Source: Adineta ricciae | Lineage: Eukaryota > Rotifera > Eurotatoria > Adinetida > Adinetidae | Direction of reading: 5' to 3' | Length of the DNA: 64,000 nucleotides | Assembly (NCBI GenBank): GCA_905250025.1 | Contig: CAJNOJ010000021.1 | Location: forward strand, 558,001-622,000 | Shown here: positions 1-43,183 of the stretch, in pieces | Layout: the number at the start of each line of letters is the position of its first letter | Numbering within the stretch: the stretch's first letter is position 1 | The notes under the pieces: generated by a model | Database searches by the model: none | What the model saw: the letters and a program-made list of their open reading frames with translations, nothing else | Told to the model about the DNA's origin: nothing | Made by a program: the position numbers and the translations under genes

Positions 1-1614
1 TTCATATCCGATTATTCTCTACCGGACCTTGATTTCCTAACATATTATGCAAAAGAAAATCCGTCACAATTCTCAGCACATTCTTCTCGAGCCAAACAGT
101 CTCTTCTGCCGATGAAAAGTCCATTCATTGAACAATTAACACCTGAAAATAAACCTCGACGAACAATATTCTTCTGTCATATCCCACTTTCAACTCGTCA
201 TTCATCATCAGCGAAAGAGAAATGTCTCAAACCGAATTCAACAACGATATCTGCATGCTCGAGTACATCGAGTAGCGGCTATTTTAGTAATTGTTCGACA
301 AATCATACGCGTCATATTCAAACACCGTTAAAATCATGTTTAAAACGAACGAAAACAGATGTTTTAGCTGATGACATTGCCCAGGATGTATTTACATTCA
401 CGACTGAGCGAGTTTACAATCAAATCGATAGTTCTGAGCAACGCCGATATTCAGTAGAGCAAGAAGAACATGATCTGGGAACGAAGAAGAGCGTTAGTTT
501 TCGCGATGAAATTGCTCGAAGGTTAATTAAACCATCAACTAGTCCAAAACTTCTAGATCAAGGTATGCTGTTCTGCCACATTTATCTGGTTTTTGACAAT
601 TCTTGACTTTAGATACTTGTGATATATTACCACGAGAAAATTTGACCGATAGTCCGCCGAGTGAATTTAATTTATCCGATGGTGAGGATGATGAAGAAAC
701 AGATGAGAAAGAAGAAGATTCTTTAGTGAATTTCGTTGCTAATACCTGCGAAGATATCATCAAACCATTACCGATTCGAAATGGAAGTGATAAGCACTTG
801 ATTGATGCATTTTCTCAAACAATTCTTCGTATATTAGAAATCAAATGTAATGATCCAAAGGTAGAACTTTCTTTGACTTTATCTGCATCATCACGTGTTT
901 TTTTTTGGTCTTTAGACTTATTTTCTCAATAATCAAACAAATCCTGAATTGGATCGCATTCTTCGTTTTGATTTTTGTCCTTTATTGCGTGCAGTTCTTG
1001 AAGATGGTTTACGGCAGCATTCAGGCTCATTGTTTTCACGCAAAATGAATCTTTGGCGCTTGATTGATCTCACTACTCCGCTAAACAGTCGATTCAATGA
1101 AGCTAAAGTGAAAGTACAAACTGATTCATCAACAAATGCGGATTGGATTGAGAAATTTAATTCATTTGTCTATCAATTACTAAAGTAAGACGATGAATAT
1201 TTTAGAAATTCATTCGAATCTATTCCTATACATCGTTTCAGTCTTCATGAACTTGCTGGATGGTTAACGCATTTCGTTTTACATCGAACAGTACTGAAAA
1301 CTTATTATGAATCATGGGCATTTCTACTTGTGAATTCAAACAAGGATATTTTCGAGTGTCTTACGAATCAATTAGAAAAACTATCACCATTGTCCTTTCG
1401 ATTGAGGTATACGAGTTTATCCAATTCAAGAATTACTCTGACAAATCAATCGTCGATTCTGCCGAAAAAATTTCATGTGCGAACATGGTTACGTGAGCGA
1501 AAAACACAGGTGAAAATCTCACCAAAAGACGCAATTTCTTCGCGAGTATCCACTCTTTCTCAACGACACAAATCCGATTTAATTCCAGTTTCCAAACGAC
1601 ATGAAAAACTTTGA
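1..1614 (+). CDS. RUN-domain protein, RUSC-like (5' end outside window)
   Basis: Four exons can be joined in frame: 1-562, 613-860, 916-1184 and 1242-1614, with introns of 50-57 nt and stop TGA at 1612-1614. The frame is open from base 1, so the start lies upstream. The first half is Ser/Thr-rich and low in structure, with an acidic run (DGEDDEETDEKEED) in exon 2. The C-terminal part, from FDFCPLLRAVLEDGL through FNSFVYQLL to YYESWAFL, follows the spacing of a RUN domain: an acidic/hydrophobic helix, a core helix ending in Leu-Leu, then the H/Y-Y-x-x-W-A-F-L block. RUN domains bind small GTPases of the Rab/Rap type; RUSC proteins are adaptors in vesicle transport and signalling. RUSC1/2 also carry a C-terminal SH3, which is absent here. 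The RUN call is fairly firm; the RUSC assignment is inference. Confidence 0.6.
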
Positions 1615-1929
1615 TATCGATGCAAGAATTGCATTCTAAATGCTGAGATATTTCTTCAATAATTGTTCTTTTTTTTCTACATTTCAACACACGTGTTTAT
1701 CTATCGAAGGTTTCTCTGGCCTTTTTAACGAATTGTTTGTTCAATTCTAATTAAAAATAAATATCTGCCTGTCAAGACTTGAGAATAGCCTTTTTTTCTC
1801 CCACACCTGCTTGGAGCCAACAGAATGTCGCGAAAAAAGTAAGTGCTGTCTGTTCTTTGACAGAAATCTTTTATGCCAACAGATCTGTTGTACTGTGATA
1901 TAAAGTGATATCATCGTACAGAGAAGCAT

Positions 1930-2001
1930 GGCTTGGTGGTCTAGTGGTATGATTCTCGCTTAGGGTGCGAGAGGTCCCGGGTTCAATCCCCGGCCAAGCC
2001 C
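1930..2001 (+). tRNA. tRNA-Pro (anticodon AGG)
   Basis: The 72-nt cloverleaf is complete. The 7-bp acceptor stem pairs GGCTTGG (1930-1936) with CCAAGCC (1994-2000), and C2001 is the discriminator. The anticodon stem CTCGC/GCGAG (1955-1959 with 1967-1971) encloses the loop TTAGGGT, giving anticodon AGG at 1962-1964, which reads proline CCU. The A box (TGGTCTAGTGG) and B box (GGTTCAATCC) of the internal RNA polymerase III promoter are intact. There is no intron and CCA is not encoded, as expected for a eukaryotic nuclear tRNA. Confidence 0.97.
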
Positions 2002-2011
2002 GGCTAATTTC

Positions 2012-2018
2012 TTTTTTT
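2012..2018 (+). terminator. RNA polymerase III terminator of the tRNA-Pro gene
   Basis: A run of seven T starts 11 nt after the discriminator base of the tRNA. Such T runs on the non-template strand stop Pol III. Confidence 0.75.
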
Positions 2019-2417
2019 CGATGTATACATTTCATTCAGTGACATGAATTGATTCGCTAAAAGTAGGTTTGTTTTCGATATAAGCAATAACAACAACATT
2101 CTCCAGCGAAGAGTTTTTATATTTACTTCATAAATGAATTAAATGCTCTTCGATGTTCTTTGTCATTCTTTTCTCTTACTCGTTCTGTTCGTTTTCTTTC
2201 CTAACGGAGTCTGTTCTCTGAACAAGGCGTATAAAAAAACGACGAAAAAGAAGTGAAAATGAGAGAGAAAGTTATTTTAATTTTTTCGTTTGTCACGAAA
2301 TACATATAGAAGACGGATTTGTTATGGTAGCAGTAAAAAAAACGAACGAGAGAGCGTCACATCTACACACATACACATGGAGATTTGAATAACTTACAAG
2401 AGTGTATCGAAGACAAA

Positions 2418-2669
2418 ATGGCGATTTCCTCGCAACAAGCTACCGGTCGGCAACGCCATCCAACCTTAGTCGCGCAAACAGATGAATTCGATGAATATGT
2501 TTATTATCCATATTATGAAAAATCCGTGCCCGGTGGTGGTTATGAATATGTTCCTGAACTTGAAGAAGTTGTAGAATATGAAGAAGAACCTGTGGAATAT
2601 GTTATAGAGCGCGCGCCACAACCCTCATCACCACCACCACAACGAACGACTGTCGTACAGAGAACGTGA
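2418..2669 (+). CDS. Small acidic Tyr-rich ORF, function unknown
   Basis: An 83-residue single-exon ORF from ATG 2418 to TGA 2667-2669. It is rich in Tyr, Glu, Val and Pro (YVYYPYYEK, EEVVEYEEEPVEY) and ends in PQRTTVVQRT. It has no signal peptide or membrane segment. Its last residues resemble the C-terminus of the kinesin encoded just downstream ([14 protein letters not shown]), and both proteins stop directly after that tail. GTGAGT overlaps the stop, so this could instead be a 5' exon with a donor there, but no convincing acceptor lies before the kinesin ATG at 3222. It could be a real small protein, an alternative first exon, or a duplicated kinesin tail fragment. Not recognised as any family. 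Confidence 0.4.
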   Translation: MAISSQQATGRQRHPTLVAQTDEFDEYVYYPYYEKSVPGGGYEYVPELEEVVEYEEEPVEYVIERAPQPSSPPPQRTTVVQRT

Positions 2670-3124
2670 GTGTGAGATTAGGTCAAACTGAAGTATTACG
2701 ATCGAACAAAAAAGAGTTTTGATTTATATGCGACGTCAGAAAAACGGAACAAAGAAATGATCGTAGTATGGGTTTCTGTTGATTGATTAGCAACATATGT
2801 GTTCGAGAGAAAACAATGATGTTGTTGTTGTTGTTGTTTTTGTTGTCGTGAGTTAACTTTCAGTTCATTGCTCGCGGGCACTTTAGAGTTTCCTGTTAAA
2901 AAACAACGCTAAAATCAATGAAAATCACTATTTTCCATTTCGACTCTCTTTTCTTTCACAAAATTACCCAGAGAACTTTTCCTTTGTCGATCCAATTAAG
3001 TTAATTACCAGTTCACATTCACTCAGCTAAGATCAGCTTTTATTTTTCAAGAATCTGTTCGGTAGATAAGCAAACCAGTAGTGCATTGTTTCTTATTGCT
3101 CTATTGTGCATGAGTATCTCCGCA

Positions 3125-3142
3125 AGAGAGAGAGAGAGAGAG
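3125..3142. repeat. (AG)9 microsatellite
   Basis: A pure dinucleotide AG run of 18 nt lies about 80 nt before the kinesin start codon, probably in its 5' UTR or promoter. Confidence 0.9.
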
Positions 3143-3221
3143 GGCGAAGAAAACTATATTTTGAAGAATAACTTTTCTTCTGATTCGGAATCATTTCCGA
3201 TAAAAGAAAACTATTAGTGAA

Positions 3222-5861
3222 ATGTCCAAGCAACCGGTTAAGTCATACACTATTGAAGCACACCCATTGTTTTCATCGAAAACTAAAAACTTAGATAATG
3301 ATATCCAAATAATCCTTACTGAGCCTACTATGGTCGCAAATGAGGATTTACACAAGACGAATGTTATGTTGAAACAAGGAAATCAATCTCCTACGATCCC
3401 AAAGACGGAACAAACAGCACGAGATAACTTGAACTTTACGCAACGTAGTTTTGCATATAGTAACGGGTATATAACACGAGCAGAGAAGAAATATTGCATA
3501 ACCGAGCATTTTCTGTTACTTATCTTCATTCTTATGTCATTTAGTACCGTTCAACATGAAGTTCCGCGTTACATCGGTTCGGATAAAGATCGTGTCCGTG
3601 TTGTCGTTCGGTAAGTTCTTATTTCGACATGACACACATGCATTGCCATTGTGTTTAGTGTTCGACCGATGAGCGAACGCGAGTATGACGAGAGTCGAAA
3701 GCCACAAAAAGTTTTACATTGTGTCAACGAAAATTCTATCATCGTAAGTTTGACTTTTCTTTCGGTAATATTCTACTGTAATTTCTATCAAACAGTTCGA
3801 TGGAGGTCAACACAGTCGTCGATTTACTTTCGACAGTGTTTTCAACGAAGCATCATCACAAGACGAAGTATTTCAATACTGTGGTATCAAACGCCTAGTT
3901 GACATGGCTATTGAAGGATACATAACTACTTGTTTTGCGTACGGTCAAACTGGTAGTGGAAAGACACACACAATGATTGGAGCCCAGGGTGCTTCGATTG
4001 TATGTTTCGATTGTTTTGAATTCTTTGTTCAGACATTATTGACTCATTCATAGTTCCGCATGGATGAACAATATCGTGTGGAACATCTTGGTATAGTACC
4101 ACGTTCGATCAATTATCTTTTTCAACGATTACGTGATAAGACATTACAATCTAGTTCTCCGTATTATATCCGTGTCTCTTACTGTGAAATATATAATGAA
4201 CAAGTAGGAAAACGGAAGATGTATGATTCTCTTGTTTCAATTGACAACTTAGATTCGTGATTTAATCCGTCCTGCCAATCCAGACGCTTTGCAAGTACGT
4301 GGTTCAATTGAAGATGGATTCTACGTGGAAAATCTTTACCAAACGTATATTGAAACTATAGACGAATTACTCACTATTCTAGAAGAAGGTTTGAAACTTT
4401 CAGAAGAAAAGAATTTTTCATGTCAAATTGATTGTGTGTATTCAGGTGAACTAAATCGAGCAATGGCTTCGCATAAACTTAACGACACGTCATCGCGAAG
4501 TCATGCCCTCTTATCTATACAAATTGAACAAGATGTACAAGAATCTGATGATCCAAATGAACAAATGACTCGACAAGGCAAACTTATTTTTGTCGATTTA
4601 GCTGGTAACAGAGAGAGCATTTCTATCCGAATATACTTATCTAATCATCATCATCATAACTTTCTACAGGTAGCGAAAAAGTCAAACTTAGTCACTCTAA
4701 AGGCAAGCAGCTCGTTGAGACGAATAACATCAATAAAAGTCTACTGACACTTGGTAACTATTTCAAACCAGTTCTATTCTTCATCCATATAACACACATG
4801 GTCTTTCTAGGTACTTGTATATCGGCCTTAAGTGATCCAAGTAAACGGTCTGGTCATATACCGTATCGAGAATCGAAGTTAACTCGACTTCTAGCAGAAA
4901 GTTTAGGTGGACATGGTATTACACTGATGGTATAGTTATTAATCTATCGTTAGGAATAAGAAAAGAAACTTCTCGAAATGTCTTCTGTTTAGATAGCGTG
5001 TATATCTCCCTCAAGACTATGTGAAAATGAGAGTATGAATACATTGCGTTATGCTAATCGTGCTAAGAATATCGAAAATGAACCGGTTGTAAAGACGGAC
5101 TCGAAAGAAAATGTTATCAATCGTTTGAAACTAGAAGTGCGAAAATTGAAAGATGAGAATAATCAATTAAAGAAGAGACTAGGCGGACAAAACTCAGCCA
5201 CTAGTTTGCCACGTCTTAAACATCGAAACTATGATGAAGGTAGGTGAATTCATACGACAAAAATGTGTTTCTTAGTATTTTGTTCGATTAGGTTCACAAA
5301 CGTCCATACGTTCATCGGCAAGCAGTGAACTATATGATCGACAAGATACACAGTAACTATCATGTAAATCTGAAGTTTACAAAAAGTTTGTTTTTCGTGC
5401 TTGATTAGTGGTCGAATGAATGGCGTGTCTACTCAAAAGATTCGAAGTCATCACGAAACGTTAACACGTGAAAATGAAAAACTCGTACGACAACTGCATC
5501 AACGTGATAGAGAACAAGGCCTATCGAACGGAAAACGGGTCATTGTTATTGAGGAAGATGTACCTGATGAAGAAGTATGACTTAATTCTATCAAATATCT
5601 ACATCTGTACTCTTCTATCATTAGACATATCCATCGAGCAATCGTCAAGTTACTCGAACTTATGCAACAGAACCTAATGACGAAGTGTTCGTATTTTGAA
5701 AATGTTTTTCGAAAAAGATTTTCTTAATTTCTGTATTGTATAGATTGGAATTAGTGCGTCGGCCATCGTATTTAACAAGATATCGAACGTATCGTAACAA
5801 AAGCTCAGAGGGCGAGTCGCCACAGCGACGTACAACAACTGTCGTACGACGAGCAACATAA
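3222..5861 (+). CDS. Kinesin motor protein, KIF12-like
   Basis: Fourteen exons join to 633 aa: 3222-3466, 3545-3610, 3659-3743, 3796-3999, 4054-4203, 4253-4388, 4446-4604, 4670-4753, 4811-4929, 4993-5239, 5292-5352, 5409-5574, 5625-5686, 5744-5861. An N-terminal extension of about 95 residues precedes the motor core. Core motifs are the first strand VRVVVRVRPMSE, P-loop [25 protein letters not shown], switch [11 protein letters not shown], switch II DLAGSEK, then [16 protein letters not shown] and [14 protein letters not shown] charged coiled coil (about 430-480) and a disordered basic tail ending [14 protein letters not shown] follow. The [19 protein letters not shown] and CISPS blocks resemble vertebrate KIF12 (kinesin-12), which is linked to ciliated epithelia. 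All motor residues are present, so it should be an active microtubule ATPase. The last intron uses the weak donor GTTCGT, making the final junction less certain. Confidence 0.85.
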
Positions 5862-8256
5862 ATACATACATGACAAGGTAATGAGAGGGAAGAAGATTGA
5901 GATGACATGTGTATTTCGTAATACAGCGTAAGATTTGAATTGAATTTTAAAAAAATAAAGTGGAAAAAGTACTGCGAACATAAGAATCAGAAGTAGGAGA
6001 AAATGAATAATAAAACAACAACAACAACAACGACACTAAACGAGGCGATAAGAGCTTTTCAAGTAGATTAAACGATGAAAAATACGAACCTTGAAGAGCT
6101 AAATTGTACAAACAATAGTCATGAATGCATATGATCGTTTCATTGTGATTATTTATCAAAGATTTTCTAAATTAACAAATCTGAAAGTGATATCACTCTT
6201 GAGTTCTTTTTTTTCCTTTAATATTTGTCAATTTAATTGCAATCGATCGAATTTCTGACTATTTACCATGTCTTTCCCATGGGATTTTTCGTTTTAGTTC
6301 GACGATACTTTTCTGCAACTGATCAAATCATCCCGAGTATCAGTCAATTCTCTTCACAATGTATACATAATTTGTTCGAAAACGAATTGTGTGTTGTCTT
6401 TTATTTTCTTCTCTTTTGCTCTTATACATTTGCGTCAATAAACAGAATTCAATTTCTCTATGCATTGGATCCGTCGTACGTTTGCCCTGTCGACGAGCAT
6501 CATTATACCAATGAACCGTAGTTTATAAAGATGCTGTAGCTCATTCAAATGCGTTTCTTTAGAGACTACGTTGAAAATGTAGTGTATAAAGAAATGACGA
6601 GCAAAGTTATAATAGTACGATTTGCTGCGCTTGCACTCCGATCAAATCAACATGTCAATACTTCAAAGCCGTCTCTTGATTCAGTACTCATCAATGAAAC
6701 TTCGGCGTCTTCGTCTTCTTTCATATTCAATGTACTCTCGCCTTCAATTGAAAATATTCCAGTACTTCTGTAGAAATTCTCGATTCATTAAAAGGACATT
6801 TCGCACGACTCTTTCTCGAAAGCATTTTCAAAAGAACAAAAGAGTCAGGGACATTATGTACAGAACATCGAGAAAATATTCAGATTAGACGCTGACAACA
6901 ACGGATAGTTGTCATTTGATTTGAAACTGACGACTCAGTTTTTTTCACACAGATCACCGAATATTTATGTGCGCGTACTGACTCCGTGGTTTCTTTTGAA
7001 GAAATATAGCGATCAGTTCGGATTGTTTATCATCAAATAGAATGAAACACAGGCGACTTCTACGATGCTAACGGTGATAATATAGCGCATTCATGAAAAA
7101 GTTACTTGGTTGAGTATGAGAAAAATATGACAAAACGAAGGATGATTCATGGTCGAGTATTCTCATGGATGTAGTGCGTAAAATACGTGAAATGAAAGAA
7201 ATTGATGGTACGTTGAATTTGTCATAGACGTGATTTGCTAATAATTTATCGTGAGTTCACCAAACTAGCATATCGAGATCGCGAAATTTATGATCGCGTG
7301 TACGATCAACAGCAGAAGGTGTTGTTATATGCAGTTTACTTTCACTGACTGTACCTGGTGATACAAGGACCTTGAACAAGAGAAGCTGATAATTATAGAG
7401 AGAATAAACTATATGATTTGGAAAGTTGACCTGTTTCATCACATGGAGTAAGGATTTTATCTGTACAAATGTGAGAAACTTCGAAACAACGATTAATTTC
7501 ACAAGAGCGTAGTCCTGAATTGATCATTTTCACAATTCATAAACGTACTGAAGTGGGTGATGGTCGTCCGTTAACGAAAACACCACGGAGTTGATAGACT
7601 TCTCCATGAGCTGAGTTCCAATTGGTATCCCCAAATATAAAATCAACTAGAAATGAAGGAGCATTGACTCAGAGAATATCAACAATTCGACCAGCTTTCA
7701 TCTTTTTGCCTAAGGTGAGATTGATCAATGATATGAACAGGTCATAATTCTATTTCTTAGGTAATGACGAGATTCGAAAACAAAGCTAACTGATCTGATA
7801 AAGCACATTTCATACGCTGAATGCTTTCATATCAATAGCGATGGCAAAACCAATACATCATTTCCTTCCTCATTCTTTTTCTTAATCATACTACTCTACG
7901 TTAGTTTTCGCTTTTGTCTTCTAAATATGTACATGATACGGTCGTTCATATTCATAATCGATATTTATCTACGCACGATGTGATTTGCATTTTCATTAAA
8001 AAGAAATTATTTTTGATTTACCTGTTCTACATTGTATCATTAAACTAGCAGAGATGTCCGGTTGCAATTAAGAGATATCTACATCCAAAGGCTCACTCGT
8101 TATAGCACGGAACAACAATTTAGACTGTGCGTGCTTTTCTATATAAAAGAATCACTAAAATCATTGACATAGGAAACGACATAAATTTCTTCTTTTATTA
8201 GTAACCAACAATTCGCTATTACAGAAAAAAAACACGATAACATATGAAAAACTTCT
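5862..8256. other. Intergenic region with no intact gene
   Basis: About 2.4 kb between the kinesin stop and the RRP45 stop. Open frames here are short and without recognisable domains. A run of coding-like fragments broken by stops lies around 6,780-7,600 and is listed separately. The rest is AT-rich, with an AATAAA-type signal near 5,950 that would suit the kinesin 3' end. Confidence 0.6.
6780..7600 (+). pseudogene. Possible decayed coding remnants, including EF-hand-like peptides
   Basis: Reading + strand frames past stops gives peptides that look once-coding. IEKIFRLDADNNG followed by a stop and LSFD (about 6,855-6,920) resembles an EF-hand loop. GDFYDANGDN (about 7,050) resembles another calcium loop. 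The fragments FTKLAYRDREIYDRVYD (about 7,255-7,310) and IHKRTEVGDGRPLTKTPRS (about 7,535-7,595) are followed by stops. They lie in different frames with no splice signals that restore one open frame. This is pattern recognition only; chance similarity is quite possible. Confidence 0.25.
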
Positions 8257-9528
8257 CTAACGATGATTGATAGCTTCAATCATCTTTAATTGCTCTTCTT
8301 TGTTTTTCTCAAGAGCGCTTCTCATTTGTTTTGTTATGTCAATAACAAGATGATGTGCTACCGAGATACAATTTTGAATCTAGATTAAAAATAAAAACAA
8401 AAATTCTGTTTAACAAAGTTCTTATCGACAAACCTGAGTGCGATTCAAAGATATCTCTCCAAGCATTGTCAATGTACTCAATTCTTTGTGTTGATTCATA
8501 CCCACAGCAAACAAACCTTCCATAACTTTCTCTTCTGCTTCACATGCATCGGTCAACATATATTCTCTAAAAAAAAATATCAAGTCAATTTTCTGATCGT
8601 ATCATTCATTCTTTCTAACGTACCCGTTTTTAAACAGAGCAAAGGTTATGATGATCGGAAAGTGTAGAATACGAACTGGTTGAGGATTTCGTTCAGTAAT
8701 TGAATGCTACGCGAATACGAAGTCAAACACTTTGAGAAAACTAAAACAACGCTTACCACATGAACATCTGTTCCGATAACCGTCACAGCTGGATAACTAA
8801 ACGAAAACCAAAGTATTCCTCTATGGCATCGAAATCATTTTTACCGAAAATGAGCTAGTGCACATAATGCAGCCAAGTTCCCGCAATCAAGGATATTTCC
8901 ATCATAATCTAATACGTGCAAATTCACGCTGATTTCCCATACCTAAAAGCAAAAAGTGAGTTTCAGTCTCCTCCCCCTCAAAAGCGGCTTACATATTCAT
9001 GGGCAAGAATACACAATGATTCCATATCAACACAGCCGGATTCGCGGATATTTTGTAGCAATTGTCGACTCATCAACGTTGTCCATTGTGCTTGTCTATG
9101 AATAAAAACTCAATGGAAATGTTTCTCTTGATGAAGAGACTGTTTTACCTTCCAGTTTCAAAGTTGAACACCATTGCATGACTATTCTTCAACTGTACTC
9201 TTAATCGACCTTCACTCGGTCGTGTTTCTTTGGGTTTTACTATGCGACATGATGTTTGCGCTAATACTCTAGAAGATCATTGTAAATAAACGAACGTATG
9301 TTTATCAACTCACAAACTTCGTGAGACCGAGCGAAACAGTAACTGATCCATATTCTTCTCGAAAATCGATTTGAATGTCGCGAGTGGCAAACGGCAGGCG
9401 ACGATCGAACCTCTAGAACAAAATCAATAGTTTATGTCATGATATTTCTGGCGGATATTTACTTGACGATCTTGTAAACAACGAATAATGAAATTCTTTT
9501 CACACTTTCCAATCACTTTCGATGCCAT
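8257..9528 (-). CDS. EXOSC9: Exosome complex component RRP45 (EXOSC9)
   Basis: Nine exons join to 286 aa: 9528-9463, 9412-9318, 9268-9149, 9095-8993, 8942-8845, 8796-8757, 8706-8624, 8566-8434, 8379-8257. The protein is an RNase PH-fold subunit of the hexameric ring of the RNA exosome, which degrades and processes RNA in nucleus and cytoplasm. Family blocks follow the order of animal RRP45: CEKNFIIRCLQDRQ, RFDRRLPFATRDIQIDF, VSLGLTKVLAQTSC, CVDMESLCILAHEYVWEISV, NLHVLDYDGNILDC, ALCALAHFRYPAVTV and KVMEGLFAVGMNQHKEL. The ring subunit needs no catalytic residues, so their absence is normal. Vertebrate EXOSC9 (about 440 aa) has a long charged C-terminal tail; this protein ends soon after the fold, as yeast Rrp45 does. 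Intron 2 uses donor GTTTGT. It lies 80 nt from the next gene on the same strand. Confidence 0.9.
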
Positions 9529-9608
9529 ACTAAAAGCACAAAAAGAAATCTTGGATTTCACTGGGTTAGTCTTTATCGCTGGCTTAGTATCACAGAAAAA
9601 AAAGGAAT

Positions 9609-11219
9609 TTATTTTACATAAAAAATCTTATCAAATAGTTCGGTAAAGAATCGTTCGAAATTCAATCGATTAAATCGATCAATTCTCTCACGAACATGGT
9701 TATGAATATCACATCGTTCATCATTAGTCATTTCCATGAGTTTTTCCATATTCGTAACATAGGAGTCAACATCACATGCGAGAAAACCTGTTTGTTCGTC
9801 ATCAATGATGTCCATTTGTGTACCGCCAGATTGATGGCCGAGAACTATCAAGCCAGCAGCCATCATGCGAACCAGATCTACAAAAAATATAGAAGGTAGA
9901 ATAGCTAAACCGAAGGTTTCACATACTAATGTCAAATGCTTGATCTTTTCTCGTATGTAAGCCAACCATTGCTTGGGCAAGTTCGGCTTTCGTTTCGTTA
10001 AAACTGATATTAACCTTGAATACGACTTTATCTTGAATGTTTAAATCTTCGACGAGGAGTTGTAATTGTTCAAGATAAGCTTTCTCTTCGTCGCGTTTGC
10101 TATAACCGATCAATACCAATTTCAGTTTTGGATAGTCTTTAGATTTTCTAAAAGAAAAGCGTCGATAGTGATTGAATTTCGTATCGGTCAAGATTTGTAC
10201 CTTTGCAAAAGCTCATTGAACGTTCGAATTTGTAATTCATGTTGAGTTTCCTTCTGGAATCGTCCGATCGAAACAAAAACTGGATCTCTATCAGTTACGA
10301 TCACATCGGGAAATTGTTCGATGTCACATGGCGGATAGAGAACATGCGCTGAAGTCAATTCTAAATACTTTTTTGTCCACGATGAATTACAGTAAATAAC
10401 TTTTGCGCATCTAATACACCATCGATCGACATAGGTAATCAATTGATAATAAAATAATTCGATTTGATACAAGATTGAATTATCTTTGCCATAGTCGTCG
10501 TGGTCGTTCGTTGATTGAATTAAATGACTAGTAATGGCCGGAGAATGGACATAAGATATAATTGGAATCGAAGCCAGATAATGAAAACATAGATAAGTGA
10601 AACTGTAACCTGCTGTATCGATAAAAATGTCAGGTATGAAACGAATCAATGCTTCCAAACTGACAATAATCGAACCAATACTTTGTCCTAGCAAAGTACA
10701 TATTTTGTAATATTTCTTCTCAAGAAGAAACCGACTGCGGAGAGGAATGAATTCAATGGACGATTTCGAACTTTTAAGATCGATATCAAAATATCGTTTT
10801 ATGCGTTGAAAGACTTCGTCTTTCGATTGAACTTGTCGATTGCCGGTGTAAACAAGGATTTGGACATCGTGTTTGTATTTTCTCAGTATCGATTGTATCG
10901 CATACCATAGAACTTGTTCTTGATCGTGATCATTATCACAATATGGATGAAAAAACGCTACACTCAAACGGCTTTGTTTTTCTTTCAATGTCCATAAGCG
11001 ACAATGACGACGATACCATGGAATGAAAACAAATGTTAAAATTGGGATAAAACCAATCGACCATCCAATTAATGTTAAAATCAACCAGAAGAGGAAAACG
11101 AACAGACAAATATTTAAAAGAATCAAGGTTACAATCGAAAGAGAGAGCAGATAGATTAATGTTAAACTCCAAACGATGAATAAAAGAAATTGAAAGAACC
11201 GTTTCGGTAGATACTGCAT
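9609..11219 (-). CDS. ALG11-like glycosyltransferase with degenerate active site
   Basis: Three exons (11219-10201, 10147-9927, 9877-9609) give 502 aa, close to animal ALG11 at about 490. ALG11 adds the fourth and fifth mannose to the dolichol-linked oligosaccharide on the cytosolic ER face. Two hydrophobic stretches (about 8-68) form the membrane anchor. The GT-B fold blocks are clear: VAFFHPYC, VYTGNRQVQS, CTLLGQSIGSI, PDIFIDTAGYSFT, NSSWTKKYLEL, VLYPPCDIEQF, LKLVLIG and MMAAGLIVLGHQSGG. Sites conserved in ALG11 are replaced. The glycine loop GGGGER reads DHDQEQ (residues 97-102). The RPEK motif reads QKET. The EX7E pair (NEHFGIxVVE) reads DQAFDINLVR, so both glutamates are lost (Gln409, Arg417). 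Frame and splice sites are intact. It is probably a diverged paralogue without normal transferase activity. Confidence 0.85.
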
Positions 11220-13502
11220 GTCGAAATCAAATGAAGATATGATTCAACGGAGAAGTCAATGTAGATGGCGCTGTACGTATGAAAATCAAATGGGGTTTTT
11301 TATGCATAAAATGAAAGAAAAATTTTCGAGAGGAAAGATTTTCATTGCATGGAAAACTTGAAAAAATTGGATTTCCAAGAAACGATTTTGATTGTTATGA
11401 TTAAATAGCCAATGATGAAAGTTCCCAAGAGCTCCTTTGTGTCTCTACTCCTTTCTCTTTCTCTCTCTCTCTCTCCTCTCTTCTCTTCTCGTGCCAATTT
11501 GTTATATGATTGAACGTTCTCGTTTTCTGACTTGCGCGCGAAAGATTATCCACGCACAATCATCTCTTATCCTTTCTCTTCTTATTCATGCGTATTAGTG
11601 CTGTGCTGTTATCATCAACAACTTTCTGTATCATCTTTTCCATAAGATCACCTCTTCTCGTTGCATAATCTTCGCCAAGATTTGTTATATGGCTACTCGA
11701 AGAATACGAGTATGTCATGTATTTGATTTGTTGTTATTTCAAGTCGATATAGAACATACAAGAGAGAAAGTCTCTTACCGGTTACTCGATTCATCGCTTT
11801 CTTAACAACATTATGTGTGTCCTGATAAACAAAAACCATCACATCATCATCAATAACAATCATCTATAAAAAAAAAAGCTTTGATCAAACATGATTTGAT
11901 TGCATAAAACAATGTCCTGACATTCTTTGTCTTCTCCCTCTCTCTCGTCTTTTCTTTTTCTCTTGCATATATCTCCATAGTAAAATCGATTTCATCGGCA
12001 ACATCTGAATTCAATCGACTTTTGTTTTCAGATGGCAAACTAGTCAATGAATGACATGAGATGTCCATCTGGTACCATTGTACAGACAGACAGACGATAA
12101 TCTTTTCATTTTACATGCTTAAGCCTTATTGTTTATGGATCGATCTGAAATAACATTAGAATACGGGCTGATAATGCCGCAAGTGCTACTCATTAATAGT
12201 CCATATGTGTTTTCGCGTTCCACGTCTTTGTTTTTCCTTCTATTCTTGAACTAATTGATCTGCTCATGATTAAAAGAATAGACTAGACATAATAAGTACT
12301 CGACTCTTTTTTTTTCATGAACAACATTTCCGTTTGACATATCTTGATAATCATTTGTAACCTTCTTATGGCTTGTTTCATTCGTTCTGATTTCTACCGT
12401 TGTTCTGTATTGTGACCCCGATCGCACGAAGGTGTTGCCCTCGATCGTCGCTCTTTTTCCTCTTTCTCTGTCCGATCGTCGATCAATCTGTTGTTACTCG
12501 TTGTCCATTCATCACTGCGCAGTAATGGCAAGGAACGAGCAAAAAAAAAGAAAATTTGCCTTCTGTCTGTCGCTTATTCTCTATTTGAACAGGAAGAATA
12601 TTGAGTGGCTTTGTTTCAAGATAATTTCATTCAGACCACCAGACAATGTTGCATCCATGTCGAATCCTTTTTTCTTTTCTAGATGTTGAATAACAATGCT
12701 GAATGAATTATCAAGTAACATCATGTTGATAGAGACACGACTACGTGAGTATATATAAATATATCGATCGTATCTATTTCGTGTTTAAATCATCTGATTG
12801 AATTTGATTTCTTTTTTTTTTTGTCACTTCAATGAACCTGCGTAATTATCAATTGTCTAGAGATGGTCAGTCGAGATTAGACATAACGAGAAAAGTTATT
12901 CTTTGAGGGACCGATGTGCTTCTTCCCGTCGATGAAGATCGATTTCATTACAAGTGTTTTCTGGTTGATAAAAAATAGATTGATATATACGTATAAGAGT
13001 CATGGTGTTAGTATCCCAGGCATATCAATTAATCGATAAGAAAAATGTATACACCGAGGCGACAAAAGACAAGACATTTTCAATATTCTTTCCTATCAGA
13101 TTTTGCAATTGAAAAGAGACGAAGAAGAAGAAAAAAAGTAATAACGAGGGATATTATAACAGTTGTTCGTTCGAGTGTAGTCAATTTGACTGTTCTATCT
13201 TATTTTCTTTTCAAAATAAGATTAACGTCGAGAGTATTAATTATTCATATTCGAATTTCATAGGTAAATATTGACATAAAGTGATGATAATTTAGTCCGT
13301 CAAGAAAATCGGATAATCTGCGTGTGTGAGTGTGCTACAGCCAATTCATTACTTTACTCTCGTACTCTCTCGCATACACATGCTACTTAATAAGGATTGC
13401 ATGTCGACGTTTTATTACCACAATCGTTACGCAAGTCTTTCTTAACATGCATTTCTCTCTTTTTTTAGTTCCATATTATTCAAAATTGTCTTAATTGCTC
13501 AG
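11220..13502. other. Intergenic region between two divergent genes
   Basis: The ALG11-like gene reads away to the left and the LRR-Ig receptor to the right. I see no convincing exon on either strand. The short ORFs are low-complexity, and there are several poly-T and CT-rich stretches. Promoter elements of both neighbours presumably lie here, but none can be named. Confidence 0.55.
11461..11475. repeat. (CT)n microsatellite
   Basis: An uninterrupted CT run of 15 nt inside a longer pyrimidine-rich tract (about 11,448-11,490). Confidence 0.85.
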
Positions 13503-15624
13503 ATGAATTCACTTCTAATCATCATCGTTTGGTATTTGCCATTAATGGCCCAGAGTCAATCCGGACCATGCTCATGTCAATTAGACAGCACGGGAATGAC
13601 CATGGTATGTGTCAATGTGAATACAATTCATAGTTATCAACAGTGCGTGCATGAGCAACTGAATTTGCAATCGGATTTGAAATTAAGACGCGGAGGAGTA
13701 ATCACGAATTTAACGATAAAAAATCATCAATTACGTAGTTTAACAACTGATCTCTTTCAATTCTCCTATGGAAATACGTTTTATCAATTGACTGATTTAC
13801 GTTATTTACATATTGTACGCGGACACTTGAAACAAATACAAAATCGATCTTTAACATTAATTGAACGAGCACTTGAACATCTGGATTTGTCCAGTAATGA
13901 GCTCGAATACGTGCCTAAATTGTCAAACAACAACGAACAATATGGCAATTTAATGTATGTATAACTCTGATGTTGACAAAGGTTTATTTATTTATTTTTT
14001 TTTATATAAAAATTTAGAAAATTAATTTTATCGCATAATCAAATTCATCGTTTGTCTTTGTCCGACATTCGAGCATACAATCACTTGCAACAACTTGATT
14101 TATCCTACAATCGCTTACAATATGTTGACATGTCTATCGTGACTTATCTCACGAGTCTACGACAATTATTTTTAAATGCTAATATGCTGCGAACTCTAGC
14201 AAATAATATCACATTTCCGAATAATTTTCATTTCAAATTAAGCTCGAATCCATTAGAATGTGACTGTCGTCTCCGATGGTTACGAAATGGTTTGAATCGT
14301 TTACAATATCCTATCTTTCATGATGAACCTCAATGTGAAATGCCGAAAGCCCTAGCTGACAGAAAAATTGCCTCTCTACGTGAACAGCAATTTGTTTGTG
14401 GACCAATTATTTCCAAACCTGATGTGACAGTATTGAGTGCTAGTAATGGAGAAATTGCTACGCTTCGATGTGATGTAAGTGATGCTAATGATCGCTAACG
14501 AGAGATTAATCTTCCGTTTCTTCAAGGTTTATTCCGATCCAGGCCCCGAAGTCTGGTGGACATTTCAGAACAAAATCATCGGTAAAATGGTCACAGCTGT
14601 TAATGAACCTGATATTCATACTGGTTCGTATACAATTCGTTATTCATGTCTGTCGATTTCTATGGATTCATCATCTCCAACTTGTTTAAATAAAACAACA
14701 ACATTAACGATTTCGAATATTGGCGCAGAACATAATGGAACCTATAATTGTGTGGCTGCCATACGTAATCAAGGTCGATCCGATAATGAACATCTCTCGT
14801 ACGAATTACGTGTTCGTCGATCATCACCGTTGACGGAAAATTCGCTTCTTCTTTGGACGATTGGAATCTTTCTGTTTCTATTCGTATTTCTCCTTATGCT
14901 ATTATTCTTTTGCTGGATTTTACGTTGTCATCGAGCAAAGCAACAACAAGCACAACGAAACAAAGCTTTGTTATTTAATTATAACGGCTCAGCAATGAGC
15001 AATGGTTATGATTACAAAGAAAAACACGATGAAAATCAGCACTTTGTCGGTAATGGAACATATGATCCATATGACATGATCGATTCCAGATCGCAACTTG
15101 GTCCACCGATGTACAGCGAAGTTCGAATGGTTGATTCGACACCGTTGAGAAGTATTAATGGCGGTGGTTCCATGTCATCGACACTATTACGAAGAAATGA
15201 TCCGTTTTACGATAGCTATCGATCGGACAGACAACTTTATGAACAGGTACGGTCATAAAGTTTTATACCAGTTTAATTATACATTTCATCATCGGTATAT
15301 TCCTTTCAGATGTATCGACCATCACCCCTCGAACCTGCAGTTGTTGATGAATTTGAAGATGAAATGATCTTTCCCACAGGTTATGATGAAGATTATCAAT
15401 ATCGTGAAGATATAATGAAACCCAATCAAGCGGTTGATCCTCGACGACAAGCCAAAGTTCAACATACGAATCACGATCGATCTGCAAAGGCAACTTCTCA
15501 GCACCTCCAGTCGACAGCTATTGCTGGTCACCATAAGTTAAATGGTACATCGAATGGATTCGTTCCATCGAATTCTGATAGGGCGGAATCTCAATACACA
15601 GGTTTAATTGAATCGCAACTCTAG
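13503..15624 (+). CDS. LRR and Ig-domain type I transmembrane receptor
   Basis: Four exons (13503-13954, 14018-14474, 14527-15246, 15310-15624) give 647 aa. A signal peptide (about 1-18) leads into a Cys-containing LRR N-cap, then several leucine-rich repeats (ALEHLDLSSNELEYVP, KLILSHNQIHRLSLS, HLQQLDLSYNRLQYVDM, SLRQLFLNANMLRTL). The LRR C-cap NPLECDCRLRWLRNGL is followed by two more cysteines. One Ig domain follows (about 285-405; LRCD, VWWTF, GTYNCVA) with N-glycosylation sites. A transmembrane helix (about 411-437) ends in basic residues. The roughly 210-residue cytoplasmic tail holds tyrosine motifs (PMYSEV, PFYDSY). This architecture matches neuronal adhesion receptors of the LINGO/ISLR/kekkon/AMIGO kind; which one is undecided. 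It probably acts in cell-cell recognition. No kinase or other catalytic domain is present. Confidence 0.85.
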
Positions 15625-16086
15625 TAAACAAGCTCATATTTATATCTCTGCAATGAACAGTGTTTTCTTCTGTTTAAAATTAACATCTGGGTAGTTTCAT
15701 ATGTATGGATGAAGGAAAAATATTTTGTCAGATGTATATTTACTTGTTTACCAATTTCGTGTTTTGTTTCTTACAGATATTTTTCGCGCGTGTGTGTGTG
15801 TATAATGGTTTTTCTTTTTTTTCCTCTCTCTAGTTCTTTAACTATGGTTCGAATGGCTTGGAATTTCTTTGTTGCTTCTTGTTTAATTTCCTTTTTTTGC
15901 CAAATATATAATCAATACTGATACTCGATGAACTTGATGACTTTTGACACGATTCTTAGCCGGTTAAGACTCATTTCCGATGTATTTTATAAACTCTAAT
16001 AGAGATGTTTTGACCACACTCACAACCCTTTACAATAAAAAGCATAAAAATTCATTCCAATGTTTCTCTAGAACAGATTCATAGCA
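15625..16086. other. Intergenic, convergent 3' ends
   Basis: The LRR-Ig receptor and the small membrane-protein gene converge here. The 460 nt are AT-rich, with a TG run near 15,790 and an AATAAA at about 16,034. No further gene is seen. Confidence 0.55.
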
Positions 16087-16730
16087 TCAAATACGTCCTT
16101 CGCGCCCTACAAAAAGACACAATACATAAGAAGTTGCTATCAATTATGATAAAAACACCACTTACTAAGGATGAAAAACAGGCACATACCGATTAAGCTT
16201 AATAATAAGAGGAAACCAAAGATAATACAGATCCATGACCAACACGGGCAATCAGCGTTCAAGTTTAATGCTGGAATGAGACTAAACGAACCTTTTGGTG
16301 CCACATTGGATGTTGTCGTATACATTACTGGTTCGGGATCCGGTGGTGGTGCTGGTGAAACCTATTGTTTGATCGGTATGTTAATACAAAATAAGAATTC
16401 TCATGCGACATACGACATAAGTATCACGAGTGTGAATCAATGGAGGTGGTTTTCGATCGGGCATGAAAATCGTTTCTTTAAGTACCGGTCGATGAACGAT
16501 CTATAAGAATTCATGAAAGAAATTGAACAGCATTGGTCGAGAGCCTACTTCGACAGGTCGTTCGAATGGTTCATCGTGTTTGTAGAAGATGGCTTCGTCT
16601 AAGAGTTCTGTTTTGCCTGGTCTTCGAACCTAGATAAACTGAAAAATGTAGAAATTCTAACAGAGAATAGTTTTATTCTAACGTAGTAGTTCGGATTTGG
16701 ATCTTGAGAGAAACCACTTGCAATCGGCAT
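16087..16730 (-). CDS. Small proline-rich single-pass membrane protein, unknown
   Basis: Five short exons (16730-16683, 16629-16549, 16500-16414, 16361-16190, 16106-16087) splice cleanly to 135 aa. No single exon is long enough to stand out, and the frame is kept across all four GT-AG introns. The start ATG is the first in a short exon reading MPIASGFSQDPNPNYY. The first 85 residues are hydrophilic and proline-rich (VSPAPPPDPEPVMY). A cysteine pair CPCW sits at the membrane border and could be lipid-modified. One hydrophobic helix follows (ICIIFGFLLLLSLIG), then the short basic end GREGRI. There is no signal peptide, so the N-terminus may be cytosolic. I recognise no family. The exon chain makes it a credible gene rather than noise. 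Confidence 0.6.
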
Positions 16731-17023
16731 GTCGTCTTTTGTTTTAAAATATCAAATTGTCTGCTTTATAAAACTAAACGCAACCAGTCAAGCAACCTTG
16801 TCAACTTGCTTTTTTTTCTTCTTTTGTTCATCTATTGAATGAAATTCGAGTTAAAAGCTAACACATATCACATCGCCTGAATAATTGTCTAGGATATCGA
16901 TCGTCTCGCAAGTGAATGAAGTTTGAAGAAGTATATTTGTTTGTCAAATTCAAGTTCAAAAGAAAAAGAGAAGAGAAAGAAGAAGAAATGGGAAATTGAA
17001 ATTCATGGCAGAAAAAAGAAAGA

Positions 17024-18154
17024 TCAAAGACAAATAGTTATGAATACAAATGTCAGAATTGATAAAAACAAATGAGAGGCTAAATTTTTCGATCCATTCT
17101 TCGTTATATCGTTCTCCAATAGTTGAAGAACATAATCCGGATGATCAGTGATAAAACCATCGACTTGTACCGTATGCCAAAAGTAGTCAACAAGATTTTC
17201 GAAGCTACTCCCAGGAAATAGATCTTTTCGGAATGTATAAGGATATACTTGAAGGTTATATTCATGTGCCCATTTGGTTAAATTGCTCATCCCGACGATT
17301 GTTCCATTCGAATCATAATCCACAACGAGGAGATGGTCAGGTGCTAACGCCTGAACTGTTTGTGAGAGATTGGCAATTCCTTCTCGACTTCGATAGAAAT
17401 CATAATCACTCGACGATTCCCCGACGCGGTTCAATGTCATCAATGCAAATAGACGTAATTCACTGCCAAGATTACGACGAATGTTCATTAACTCTTCAAT
17501 ATGAAATGTTTGAATTACAACTGGATCAGTTGGTCGTGTTAAATTATAAGCCCTCAGTGTGCCAAGTACAACGCGTGAGATCGATCGATTGTTTTCAGTG
17601 TGATATTCAGGCTTTTTTATCTCAATTAATAATTGTCGTTGTCGGCCTGTTGCACGGTTAAGACCGAGTAATAACTCAATAGTTTCATTCAATGTTGATA
17701 ACCGAAAAGGTACAACAGATCTCGAAGGAAATCGTAATGGATATATCTGGGTGCCATTCAATGGTCTTACTCGTTCACGAACAGTTAACTGACGTATTTC
17801 ATCCAAAGTGAAATCAATAACGTAGTTAAGACCATTTGAACGATTTCTACCAGGATGTATTTCTGCAACATTAGTTACACCATCCAAATAGAGATCTACA
17901 TTTACAAACGAGACATTTCCTTATTAAAATACGAATATGTTTTGCTTATTACCATGAATAACAATCAACTGATTGTCTTTGCTCAAATTAACATCAATTT
18001 CAATAAAATCAGCACCGAACGCATGCGCCATGGACTGAGTAGCTAAAGTCAATTCCGGTAAATAGGCGGAACCACGATGTCCAATAACTAATGGACGTTG
18101 CTGTAAACCTTGACAGATTGCAAGGCAGTAAAAAAGCATAAAGTACAGTAACAT
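17024..18154 (-). CDS. Glycerophosphodiester phosphodiesterase, GlpQ-type, secreted or GPI-anchored
   Basis: Two exons (18154-17953, 17895-17024) give 357 aa. The start is the ATG before a hydrophobic signal sequence (LLYFMLFYCLAICQG); longer upstream ATG frames read through it. The GDPD catalytic set is complete: the HR and E of GHRGSAYLPELT, the metal-binding E and D of FIEIDVNLSKD, and the general acid HD formed across the intron (VIH-D-LYLDGVTNVAE). Later blocks are YVIDFTLDEIRQL, LLIEIKKPEYH, VVIQTFH and VDGFITDHPD. Such enzymes hydrolyse glycerophosphodiesters to glycerol-3-phosphate and an alcohol. The TNVAE and IDFTLDEI blocks resemble bacterial periplasmic GlpQ more than the animal GDE family. 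The C-terminus ends in a hydrophobic stretch (ASHLFLSILTFVFITICL) after small residues, which suits a GPI signal. This suggests a cell-surface enzyme of possible bacterial origin. Confidence 0.85.
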
Positions 18155-18832
18155 GTTTTGTGTGCAACAAAATCTACTTGGTATTGAATTAGAAGTATCA
18201 TCGTATTTATATGAAGGAAGATTCGATATGTTTTTTATCTTGTTTATGACAGAGTAAATGTTGACAAGAACTTTGCTTAAAAACGCATAGAGTATTAACA
18301 TATGGATTAGAAGATGCATCAAGTGCGCGCTGTACCAAAATGATTCTCTATAGGAAGCATCTGTCGTATGCTGTGCTGAAGAATTCAGATTTTTCGCCAG
18401 CAAGAATTCATCATTTCTCGGGTAAATTTCAAGTGCATGGTCATAAAACTATTATAATCCGACACTTTTACGAATCTTGAGCAAATTTACGGCCAGATTA
18501 GACCTTGTTGAGATGCGAAAAACAGAGCATTGAGAAAACAATTTTGATCTCTAAGAATAGTATTTGCATTTTCACCGATCATTCATTAACTCCATCTATC
18601 TTTCGCTTGTTATCAGTAACGAAAAACATTTCAATGAACAATCTACGCATATTTCACAATGGAATAATCAAAAAGAATGAACACTCATTAGCATGAACAT
18701 GCTGGTTATTTATCCTCTATCTTTACCTTTGTACTTTCACATTGTCTTTGTTACTTGAACACATACATATAATAGTAAATCGCCTTTTCTTTTTCTTATA
18801 TTAGATAATACAAACATTTCGTCTTCGTAATC
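18155..18832. other. Intergenic, shared 5' region of GDPD and TMEM59 genes
   Basis: This 680-nt gap separates two divergently transcribed genes. An open frame on the minus strand runs upstream from the GDPD start to about 18,403 but has no domain, and the signal peptide argues for the downstream ATG. Nothing else is recognisable. Confidence 0.5.
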
Positions 18833-19773
18833 ATGTTGAAACTTATCGCGTTAACCGTTTTCTTACTCGCATCACCATCATTTGGTTTAATCGAAAGTTT
18901 ACTTCAATCGCAAAGTGACTGTTACTCGGGTTGTCGATCGAATTATGCTACGAATTCAGATCATATCTTTGCTTGTCAATCAGGTTTGTTGCGAAAAAAA
19001 ATATATCTTGATAAGCGATAGAATTTGTTTTTCTCTCAGGATGCAATTACAAATTACAAGATGAAGATTGTGTAAATCAATGTCGATTGATTTCGTCTGA
19101 CAAACAAATGCAAGCTAGTTGTCTCGTCGGCTGTTCAATGAATAAAGTAGTGAGTCGAACAGATCGATTTCTATTGTAAACTTCATTTCGTGTTTAGAAC
19201 ATCCACGATCGTCCACATCGTATTGCTGTCGTTCAAATTCACAGCTCGTTGAACGACGACAGTACGGTCGAGGAACGTATTCGACCCATGGCTTCATCAA
19301 TAGCTGATAAAATCAAAAAATTCTTGACATTAGCTAAATATACCCATCTTTCATCATCGAATGATGATAGCGAACAACCGATCAGACAGTTCGTCGTTCT
19401 TCACGGAACCAAACTTGAATCTACAACGGCTCAACTTCATCACTATGTTAACCATCTTCATGGCCAATGGAATGAACTTGTCCACAAACAATCCAAAGTT
19501 GCAACTTGTTTCTTTGTTGGCCTTTGCATCTTATCCTCTTTGATGCTTTGGTGTAAGTTTTGTTGTGTTTTACCTCATCTCTCCAACATTTTCGATTCCC
19601 TAGATATGATTGTTTCACTCTGTCGTCGTCGGCCAACGTCGCAGAATATGTCTATTCGCGCTCAAGACCTTGTCTTCGATAGCAGTTATGAAAAAGAAAA
19701 AATTCAACCAAATGAATACTATTACGATGCGACACAATCCGCACCAATCAAAGTTAAATTAACACATATCTAA
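18833..19773 (+). CDS. TMEM59: TMEM59-like type I membrane protein
   Basis: Three exons (18833-18983, 19040-19149, 19198-19773) give 278 aa. A signal peptide (about 1-18) is followed by a cysteine array in the TMEM59 order: DCYSGCR, ACQSGC, DCVNQCR, SCLVGC. A luminal region, one transmembrane helix (about 190-210, CFFVGLCILSSLMLWCKF) and a cytoplasmic tail ending PIKVKLTHI follow. Human TMEM59 has the same paired CxxxC blocks, one late transmembrane segment with cysteines, and a C-terminus containing TKVNLAH. In mammals it resides in Golgi/endosomes, modulates glycosylation of cargo and can trigger ATG16L1-dependent autophagy. The match rests on cysteine spacing, topology and the tail; overall identity is low. 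Confidence 0.72.
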
Positions 19774-20154
19774 AGAAAAAGAAGTGTCTTCTTTTCCTCC
19801 TTAAATACGATTTAACCAGTCGAAGGAGATATGCCAGTCATTCATAATAAACGTTTCTTTTTTTTTCTGCAATGTAAATGATCTCTATCCTATCTACGTC
19901 GTCATCTTTTAATTCTGATAATAAAAAAAACGTCATTTTTAATCATCTATTTGTTTTCCAAAGCGCACTTTGCCTATCTAAGTCTTATCTGACTAAACAA
20001 ACTTACGTTGTCTAAGAATAGGCAACCTTGTCGATTTATTCAGAAACAAACAAATTTTGGTCATAGCAATACGAAATAAAACGATTACAAACACTTTTTG
20101 AAACGAAATCGTAGAAATGCAAAGACGTTAAGTCTACTCCGATGTGCCTTGTTT
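19774..20154. other. Intergenic, convergent 3' ends
   Basis: The TMEM59-like and spinster-like genes converge over about 380 nt of AT-rich sequence. Poly-T and poly-A runs are present; no gene is seen. Confidence 0.55.
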
Positions 20155-22367: not shown

Positions 22368-22898
22368 GATGAACACAATCTTTTAGTGAAGATATAAATC
22401 TATATATGTCAACAAACGGTCGACCTACTTGTCAAGACATATATCCATTCGCTTCTTTTCTTCTATGTCTTTATATCTTCTTGCTTTCAAATGAAAAATT
22501 GCAGGTAAACCTTTTTAATATTGTCAGCTAGTGGCATCTTAGAAAACGGAATAGCAAACGTTGAACTTTCACTACATAATTCAGCTTAGTAATCGTTATT
22601 TGAAATATTAAGACTAGCGAAGAGAAACAAAAACTTTTTGTCAATATTATATCACCTTGATTTTAAGGAAAAAACTTCAATGATTAGTTTCGTCGTCTTT
22701 CTTCACGCTTATTGACGTCATCGCATTTTGCAATCTTTGGGGTGGACTGCTGACAACTAACAGTAATTTCTGTTGAATGTCATTACACTTACAATTAATC
22801 AACCGAACGAAAAATACATTTCATAACATCGTATTTATGTATTGAGAGAACGCATATCCTATGAGACATAGAAAGCAAGCACAATAAATGTACTTGAT
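22368..22898. other. Intergenic, divergent 5' region
   Basis: About 530 nt between the divergent spinster-like gene and the ADP-ribosyltransferase gene. No exon or named promoter element is seen. Confidence 0.5.
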
Positions 22899-25520: not shown

Positions 25521-25928
25521 TGAAGACTACCCACTCGTTCTATTGTTGTTTGTAAATAAAAATACGTTTTTTCTTTCGACAACAAAACTTGGATATTCAT
25601 ATGTGACAGCTTCGTATGAGATACAATTCGAATAGATATTTATTCATTCAGCAGAAACAAAACGATTAAATTGATTCACATAAAGAGAGATATAAGGCAA
25701 AGGTAAAAAGGCACTTCATTTCGACATAGAAACCTGAGATTAACACGAGAAGAAAGAAAAAGACAATTATACAAGATTTTCGGAAATCATTGAACAAATG
25801 CATCTGACAAACAAATATCTATGTTATTCGTTGCAAGAATGATTAAATATGAAAAACAACAACATTGAGAGATAAGGTTATACCCGTATATAAATATATA
25901 CATACATACATATACAAATCAATCTCGT
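25521..25928. other. Intergenic, convergent 3' ends
   Basis: About 400 nt between the ADP-ribosyltransferase stop and the M6 stop. The sequence is AT-rich with an ATAC-rich patch near 25,893-25,912. No gene is seen. Confidence 0.5.
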
Positions 25929-26986: not shown

Positions 26987-27322
26987 TGTCCGATCGGACC
27001 AAAGTTCTCGACTTCGATCAGCAAATCGACTGATATCACCTAGTAGAAAACAAGAGACAAAAACTAATTTACTCGGTAATTTTCAACAACATACGATCAT
27101 GAACAACCATATCGATAAGGTGCAAATGTTGACGATGGACGTAACACGAACCGAGCGAACGAAATGTTGACAGACAGACAAGCAGACAGAATAAACATGC
27201 AAACAAAGAATTTCATTGCTCGCGGATTTCAGCCAATGAAATGTTTTTCTTTGTCATAAACGATCGACGCCTTTCGAAGTACGAGAAGAAAAAAAAAACA
27301 GATTAGAAAAGTGTTCTAAACA
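26987..27322. promoter_or_regulatory. Shared upstream region of M6 and the SPIN90-like gene
   Basis: These 335 nt separate two divergent start codons, so both promoters must lie here or in 5' UTR exons. The M6 open frame continues upstream of its ATG to an acceptor-like TTTCTACTAG at about 27,040, which suggests a spliced leader or 5' UTR exon. Specific elements cannot be named. Confidence 0.4.
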
Positions 27323-28931: not shown

Positions 28932-28976
28932 GGTATTCTTTTGCATTTCAGATTAGTTTTCTTTCATATCGAATCA

Positions 28977-30765: not shown

Positions 30766-31099
30766 ATTTCATTCTTTTTCAATGTTTATTTTCTTTCTTC
30801 TGTTAAATTCTTGTTCACATTCAAGCAGGAACTAAAAACCAACCAATTTATCTTTTTTTTGCTCTTGTTAACTTCAAAGAAAAGCAAGAAAATAAACATG
30901 ATAACCTTTTAAAAGTCGAGAACCATCGATACTAGTTACTGACACTTATCTGCGACATCGACATCTGATTCGATTCTCACGTTCGATACTCTACACAGAG
31001 ATGACGATGCAAAACACGGAGAATACTTTGTCATACTTCGTATTAACATTTTTATAAATCCTCGGCGAACGAAACTATACAGTACAAAAACCAGAAAAT
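30766..31099. other. Short intergenic region
   Basis: About 330 nt of AT-rich sequence hold the 3' end of Rpn6 and the promoter of the next secreted-protein gene. Nothing else is seen. Confidence 0.5.
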
Positions 31100-31747: not shown

Positions 31748-31826
31748 GTTGATGTCTTTCTTTGACATTTCAAATAAAATTGAATACCTTGCGTGTTTAT
31801 GAAGACAAGCTTTTATTATAGGCTGA

Positions 31827-37443: not shown

Positions 37444-37669
37444 ACGCTCATACACTCTCACTTGACGACTAATGCAACTCGGTACAATCTTTATTTTGTT
37501 CGTGTGTAATATTTTCCTCATTCGATGATTAAAATAAAATAAGAAAGCTAACATGCGACGCGTATTAGTAAAAAAAACGAAAACACACTGAATAATCAAA
37601 TGAAATAACGAGATAATGTTTGCCATTGTAATAAGATAAGTATAACATAGCAGGAGAGAATGTTTCTTT

Positions 37670-39706: not shown

Positions 39707-43183
<3,477 letters not shown>

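Follow-up and report, generated by a model that had tools for sequence, protein, structure and literature searches.

How can a gene for a housekeeping glycosyltransferase keep an intact reading frame when the residues that mark its catalytic sites have been replaced? ALG11 is the GDP-Man:Man3GlcNAc2-PP-dolichol alpha-1,2-mannosyltransferase, recognized by the Pfam domains ALG11_N (PF15924) and Glycos_transf_1 (PF00534), and assembly of the N-glycan precursor is essential and highly conserved. The window analyzed here, a stretch of 64,000 nucleotides from Adineta ricciae (contig CAJNOJ010000021.1), contains an ALG11-like gene, designated W (Table 1). A first-pass annotation, made from the sequence alone, had described it as an intact, spliced 502-aa ALG11 homologue with clean splice sites, and the gene model bears this out: 502 codons and a stop are distributed over three exons separated by two short GT-AG introns, and both Pfam domains are present in the order found in ALG11, above their curated cut-offs (ALG11_N, 191.6 bits, E 2.3e-56, cut-off 29.8; Glycos_transf_1, 65.5 bits, cut-off 26.4). 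Our analysis leads us to conclude that W very probably has no ALG11-type catalytic activity, as judged from its motifs, and is retained by selection. On balance we favor a fuller account in which W is an ALG11 ohnolog born of tetraploidy whose activity disappeared early and which persists as a pseudoenzyme, perhaps as a partner in a complex.

Table 1. Positions of W, its exons, introns and altered motifs, and of the duplicated block, in window coordinates
Feature	Position	Strand	Basis or remark
W, ALG11-like gene, 502 aa, most likely ohnolog of the intact C25 ALG11	9609..11219	-	gene model, Pfam, alignment
W exon 1	10201..11219	-	
W intron 1, 53 nt, GT-AG; position as in C25 intron 1 (44 nt)	10148..10200	-	
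W exon 2	9927..10147	-	
W intron 2, 49 nt, GT-AG; position as in C25 intron 2 (61 nt)	9878..9926	-	
W exon 3, including stop codon	9609..9877	-	
W N-terminal hydrophobic segment, residues 1-67	11019..11219	-	hydropathy like intact copy; predicted helix
W degenerate glycine-rich loop DHDQEQ, residues 97-102 (intact copy GGGGER)	10914..10931	-	
W degenerate QKET, residues 322-325 (intact copy RPEK)	10245..10256	-	
W Gln409, first position of EX7E (intact copy Glu)	9940..9942	-	
W Arg417, second position of EX7E (intact copy Glu)	9867..9869	-	
Block collinear with C25 ~163-294 kb, inverted, one out-of-order match	301..52820	.	neighbors of W, most likely ohnologous

An essential enzyme requires a working copy, and the first-pass annotation had predicted an ordinary ALG11 elsewhere in the genome. 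We searched 130,461,839 bases in 1033 contigs, an assembly that may be incomplete, with ALG11_N and with W as queries, and scored all candidates of both searches. Two ALG11 loci were found, W and a gene at ~268.8-270.5 kb of contig C25. The C25 gene encodes 517 aa with the motifs GGGGER, RPEK and EHFGIGVVE and scores higher than W for both domains (301.5 and 90.6 bits); it is the predicted copy, and the idea that the ordinary ALG11 is missing is ruled out. Since each ALG11 was found once, the assembly seems to hold no separate alleles of either. The two proteins are 50% identical, 16 residues of the C25 protein are absent from W, and the C25 introns split the same codons as those of W. Hydropathy of the W N-terminus matches that of the intact copy, and residues 158-226 are the most conserved of nine hand-cut stretches (67% identity). 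In an AlphaFold2 model of exon 1 alone (mean pLDDT 49.9), the N-terminal helix is the only confident part.

The neighbors of W are collinear on both contigs, showing that the pair is the product of a large-block duplication; this context, unseen by the first-pass annotation, accounts for the existence of two ALG11 copies. The likeliest relation between W and the C25 gene is that of ohnologs in a tetraploid of the bdelloid type, with whole-genome duplication as the inferred source of the block, a status that we derive from the collinear blocks, from bdelloid kinship, and from published bdelloid pairs. Kinship by sequence rests on one ionotropic receptor of the genome (L044), which among solved structures matches the AvGluR1 ligand-binding domain best (260.7 bits; next 170.8). 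AvGluR1 comes from the bdelloid Adineta vaga. The GC content of the window is 36.5%. For comparison, the accessible part of the bdelloid genome study PMC5916493 reports 35.6% for A. ricciae, describes gene pairs that are diverged and collinear, as is the W/C25 block, places the tetraploidy before the split of the bdelloid families, and gives a mean ohnolog KS of 1.27 for A. ricciae and 0.61-0.70 for three other bdelloids.

The block takes up almost the entire window. Ten stretches of it were also scanned against Pfam, three of them without a match. The others contain a kinesin (~4.7 kb), an LRR/Ig-like gene (14.0-15.2 kb), a GDPD phosphodiesterase (17.0-17.9 kb), a rhodopsin-type GPCR (31.9-32.9 kb), a protein kinase (42 kb) and a C2H2 zinc-finger gene (48-49 kb). 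The GDPD gene (17039-17908) matches C25 twice at ~252-260 kb, with 63% and 39% identity, which suggests an extra copy there. A tRNA-Pro (AGG) at 1930-2001 falls within the stretch 1901-2023, which is conserved at the ohnologous site on C25.

Comparison with the C25 protein confirmed each replacement that had been noticed in W: DHDQEQ for GGGGER, QKET for RPEK, and Q409 and R417 for the two glutamates of EX7E. The glutamates of the loop and of RPEK are retained, the lysine of RPEK has become T325, and charged and amide side chains occupy what was the glycine loop of the N-domain. These changes are not scattered at random over the protein. Of the 12 motif residues, 10 differ between the copies, compared with 242 of the remaining 489 (Fisher p=0.036), and a separate omega for the 12 codons is 0.56, against 0.148 elsewhere (2dlnL=10.9, p=0.001). 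The nonsynonymous changes in the same codons number at least 14, or ~0.5 per nonsynonymous site. For residue-matched draws the probability of reaching 14 such changes was 0.005, and that of reaching 10 changed residues was 0.011; circular shifts did so in 16 and 20 of 500 cases, respectively.

A wider set of GT4 sequences places these losses in context. We compared both ALG11 copies with twelve others, comprising eleven loci of the genome (one of them ALG2-like and taken here to be ALG2) and the segment in PDB 2f9f; twelve loci had been fetched for PF00534, and L014, which has a stop in frame, was left out. Four C-domain columns, K325, E409, E417 and P424, are invariant in 12/12 of the other sequences. 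K325, E409 and E417 are present in the C25 protein and replaced in W, by T, Q and R, respectively; at P424 both ALG11 copies have Ile. An initial comparison with eight sequences (the ALG2-like gene, six more genome loci and the 2f9f segment) had given seven invariant columns, of which six were common to C25 and three of those six were lost in W. Together with the statistics above, these columns uphold the earlier reading that several catalytic sites have been lost, and they locate the changes at motif positions. Among near-invariant columns common to C25, W keeps L350, G354 and F383 (10/12 each) and G422 (11/12), and has Asp at G412 (10/12). Not every change in W is a loss relative to GT4, since its Arg320 is the residue of 10/12 other sequences, where intact ALG11 has Gln. 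A further conserved-looking stretch of the N-domain, VHYPTIS.DM, reads VHSPAIT.HL in W; we assume that it takes part in acceptor binding. In PglH, as described in the accessible text of PMC5792488, contacts to sugar and ribose come from the EX7E glutamates and those to the pyrophosphate from R191 and K196; mutation of either glutamate to Ala costs ~300-fold. Given these mutant costs and the residues lost, we infer that W would be unable to perform ordinary GDP-mannose transfer.

Is such a protein still under selection? A pairwise codon model over 501 codons of W and C25 gave an omega of 0.148 (dN 0.408; dS 2.76, near saturation), and omega=1 was worse by 71.8 lnL units and is rejected; the first-pass annotation had named a ratio near 1 as the mark of neutral decay, and the value obtained is not near 1. 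In 13 neighboring groups, which are tblastn matches grouped in open frames rather than verified gene models, omega ranged over 0.056-0.268, dN over 0.116-0.498 and dS over 1.57-3.92. Left out of these groups beforehand were the tRNA stretch, the out-of-order match at 7540-7653, three matches of unclear strand at 16168-16742 and a lone match at 37066-37431. The dS values exceed the KS published for bdelloid ohnologs in the available part of PMC5916493, the two estimators being different. The ALG11 pair has the third highest dN and the second highest omega of the 14 gene groups, and because of the latter we regard its constraint as weaker than usual. This selection evidence comes from one gene pair in one species.

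The state of the reading frame and the load of motif changes behave as two clocks that disagree. When neutral decay was simulated from the C25 sequence, with base frequencies and kappa chosen manually to approximate the genome composition and with no insertions or deletions, the probability of no stop was 0.168 at 0.02 substitutions/site and 0.013 at 0.05, and no stop-free frame survived in 400 runs at 0.10; from W the values were 0.160, 0.003 and 0/400. At a neutral divergence of 0.05, by comparison, at least 14 nonsynonymous changes in the motif codons would have P=3e-10, and even at 0.3 P=0.043. Since a stop-free frame limits unconstrained evolution to ~0.05 substitutions/site and the motifs carry ~0.5 changes per nonsynonymous site, the protein was apparently maintained for a long time after its catalytic function had gone. 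Multi-nucleotide mutations would soften this argument, but we judge that they would fall short of the tenfold effect required. If C25 simply kept the family motifs, the changes belong to W and correspond to a near-neutral rate over much of its history. Two histories fit, and both imply a function: an early release of the motifs from a constraint that continued to act on the rest of the protein, or positive selection on the motifs. A long-standing neutral pseudogene is contradicted by omega, the stop-codon simulation and the motif-codon load, in keeping with the view of the first-pass annotation that a simple dead gene is less likely.

Assigning changes to one branch is less decisive. A relative-rate test on the C-domain against the ALG2-like protein counted 21 W-specific and 12 C25-specific changes, a difference that is not significant (p=0.16). 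By raw count, private changes were likewise more numerous in W than in C25 against each of seven other GT4 sequences taken singly (for example 20 to 7, and 10 to 8 at the narrowest). If dN divides 21:12, simple arithmetic on that C-domain ratio (p=0.16) puts omega on the W branch near 0.2. Searches of viral, bacterial and archaeal collections with C25, W and their two-row alignment as queries yielded no outgroup ALG11, and little was expected there.

What might a catalytically inert ALG11 do? The accessible portions of PMC4973528 and PMC8827073 describe a complex of Alg1, Alg2 and Alg11 whose activity reportedly depends on heteromer formation. Because ALG11 acts with ALG1 and ALG2, and because W keeps the hydrophobic N-terminus and the conserved 158-226 region, the role that we favor for W, by analogy and at somewhat less than even odds, is that of a non-catalytic partner within the ALG1/ALG2/ALG11 complex. 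ALG11 would have been duplicated in an ancient bdelloid tetraploidization to give W and the C25 gene, and W would have lost its mannosyltransferase activity long ago while the rest of its frame stayed constrained; it may now belong to the complex, alongside active ALG11 or instead of it, and could tune assembly, stability or rate. In the genome searches ALG14 matched at one locus and the ALG2-like gene gave one match, so that no matching duplication was seen for these two partners.

The folds of the AdoMetDC prozyme and of the inactive deoxyhypusine synthase subunit are unrelated to the ALG11 type. As far as the accessible texts go, the T. brucei prozyme (PMC5201418) and the trypanosomatid deoxyhypusine synthase subunit (PMC3663545) resemble W in being dead paralogues beside active ones, and they have been shown to activate the active partner, an effect that for W would be a matter of analogy. 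The pseudoglycosyltransferases VldE and ValL likewise resemble glycosyltransferases yet deviate from the usual transfer reaction; according to the portions available of PMC3441724, PMC3288074 and PMC12041759 they make a C-N bond, whereas no chemistry is indicated for W. Compared with ALG11 itself, W is alike in its domains, its hydrophobic N-terminus and the intron positions of the intact copy, and unlike it in the glycine-rich loop, RPEK and both EX7E glutamates, which ALG11 has and W has replaced.

W could instead act outside the N-glycosylation pathway as a membrane-bound binder or scaffold, for example as a sensor of lipid-linked glycans, and the evidence of constraint would be identical to that for a complex partner. 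The altered VHSPAIT.HL stretch also fits such a role, which we nevertheless consider improbable: nothing positive points to another pathway, and the hydrophobic N-terminus and N-domain are ALG11-like. Still less probable is that W lost its function very recently and has yet to acquire a stop or frameshift. The third-highest dN, the excess of W-specific changes against the ALG2-like protein (p=0.16 notwithstanding) and the 16 missing residues would suit recent loss, but the gap between a frame that allows ~0.05 unconstrained substitutions/site and motif codons that carry ~0.5 changes per nonsynonymous site argues against it, as do splice sites that lie at the C25 positions; W may, for its part, have been silenced after a long phase as a pseudoenzyme. 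The first-pass annotation had offered a pseudoenzyme or a transferase whose mechanism or donor is novel, and the first of these is what omega, the simulation and the motif losses favor; a transferase whose altered pocket serves another donor or acceptor, or another catalytic mechanism, is very unlikely, for although Arg320 agrees with other GT4 proteins, the frame is under selection and positive selection could also produce fast motif-codon change, the glycine loop, the GT4-invariant lysine and both EX7E glutamates were lost together across three motif blocks, the PglH substitutions are costly (PMC5792488, accessible text), and no substitute catalytic residue can be named nor anything else that points to replacement chemistry.

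If W is indeed an inactive ALG11 that has long coexisted with an active copy, it would offer a natural test of non-catalytic roles of ALG11, especially in the ALG1/ALG2/ALG11 complex, and would illustrate how, in an ancient tetraploid, a duplicated housekeeping enzyme can be put to a different use. More speculatively, and with considerable doubt, a dead ALG11 fixed since the bdelloid tetraploidization could be an obligate non-catalytic subunit that controls synthesis of Man5GlcNAc2-PP-dolichol, or a binder of lipid-linked glycans outside the complex, and in either case would add a level of control over N-glycosylation that is absent from other animals. We found no report of W in the literature on Alg11 with rotifers or pseudoenzymes, a search that covered mostly papers available without subscription.

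The genome searches also gave observations on other families. The best PF00534 score in the genome belongs to L003 (G000:C458), a GT4 gene in a single frame that looks bacterial and BshA-like and that would reflect horizontal transfer or a contaminating contig. PF10613 has 67 matches in the genome; quite a few of them lie in uninterrupted frames of 700-1000 aa and some are adjacent on one contig, which makes an expansion of ionotropic receptors likely; of the long frames, L044 is the one that was compared with solved structures, AvGluR1 being best. For another glutamate receptor of the genome, the best match is vertebrate-type glutamate receptor 3.
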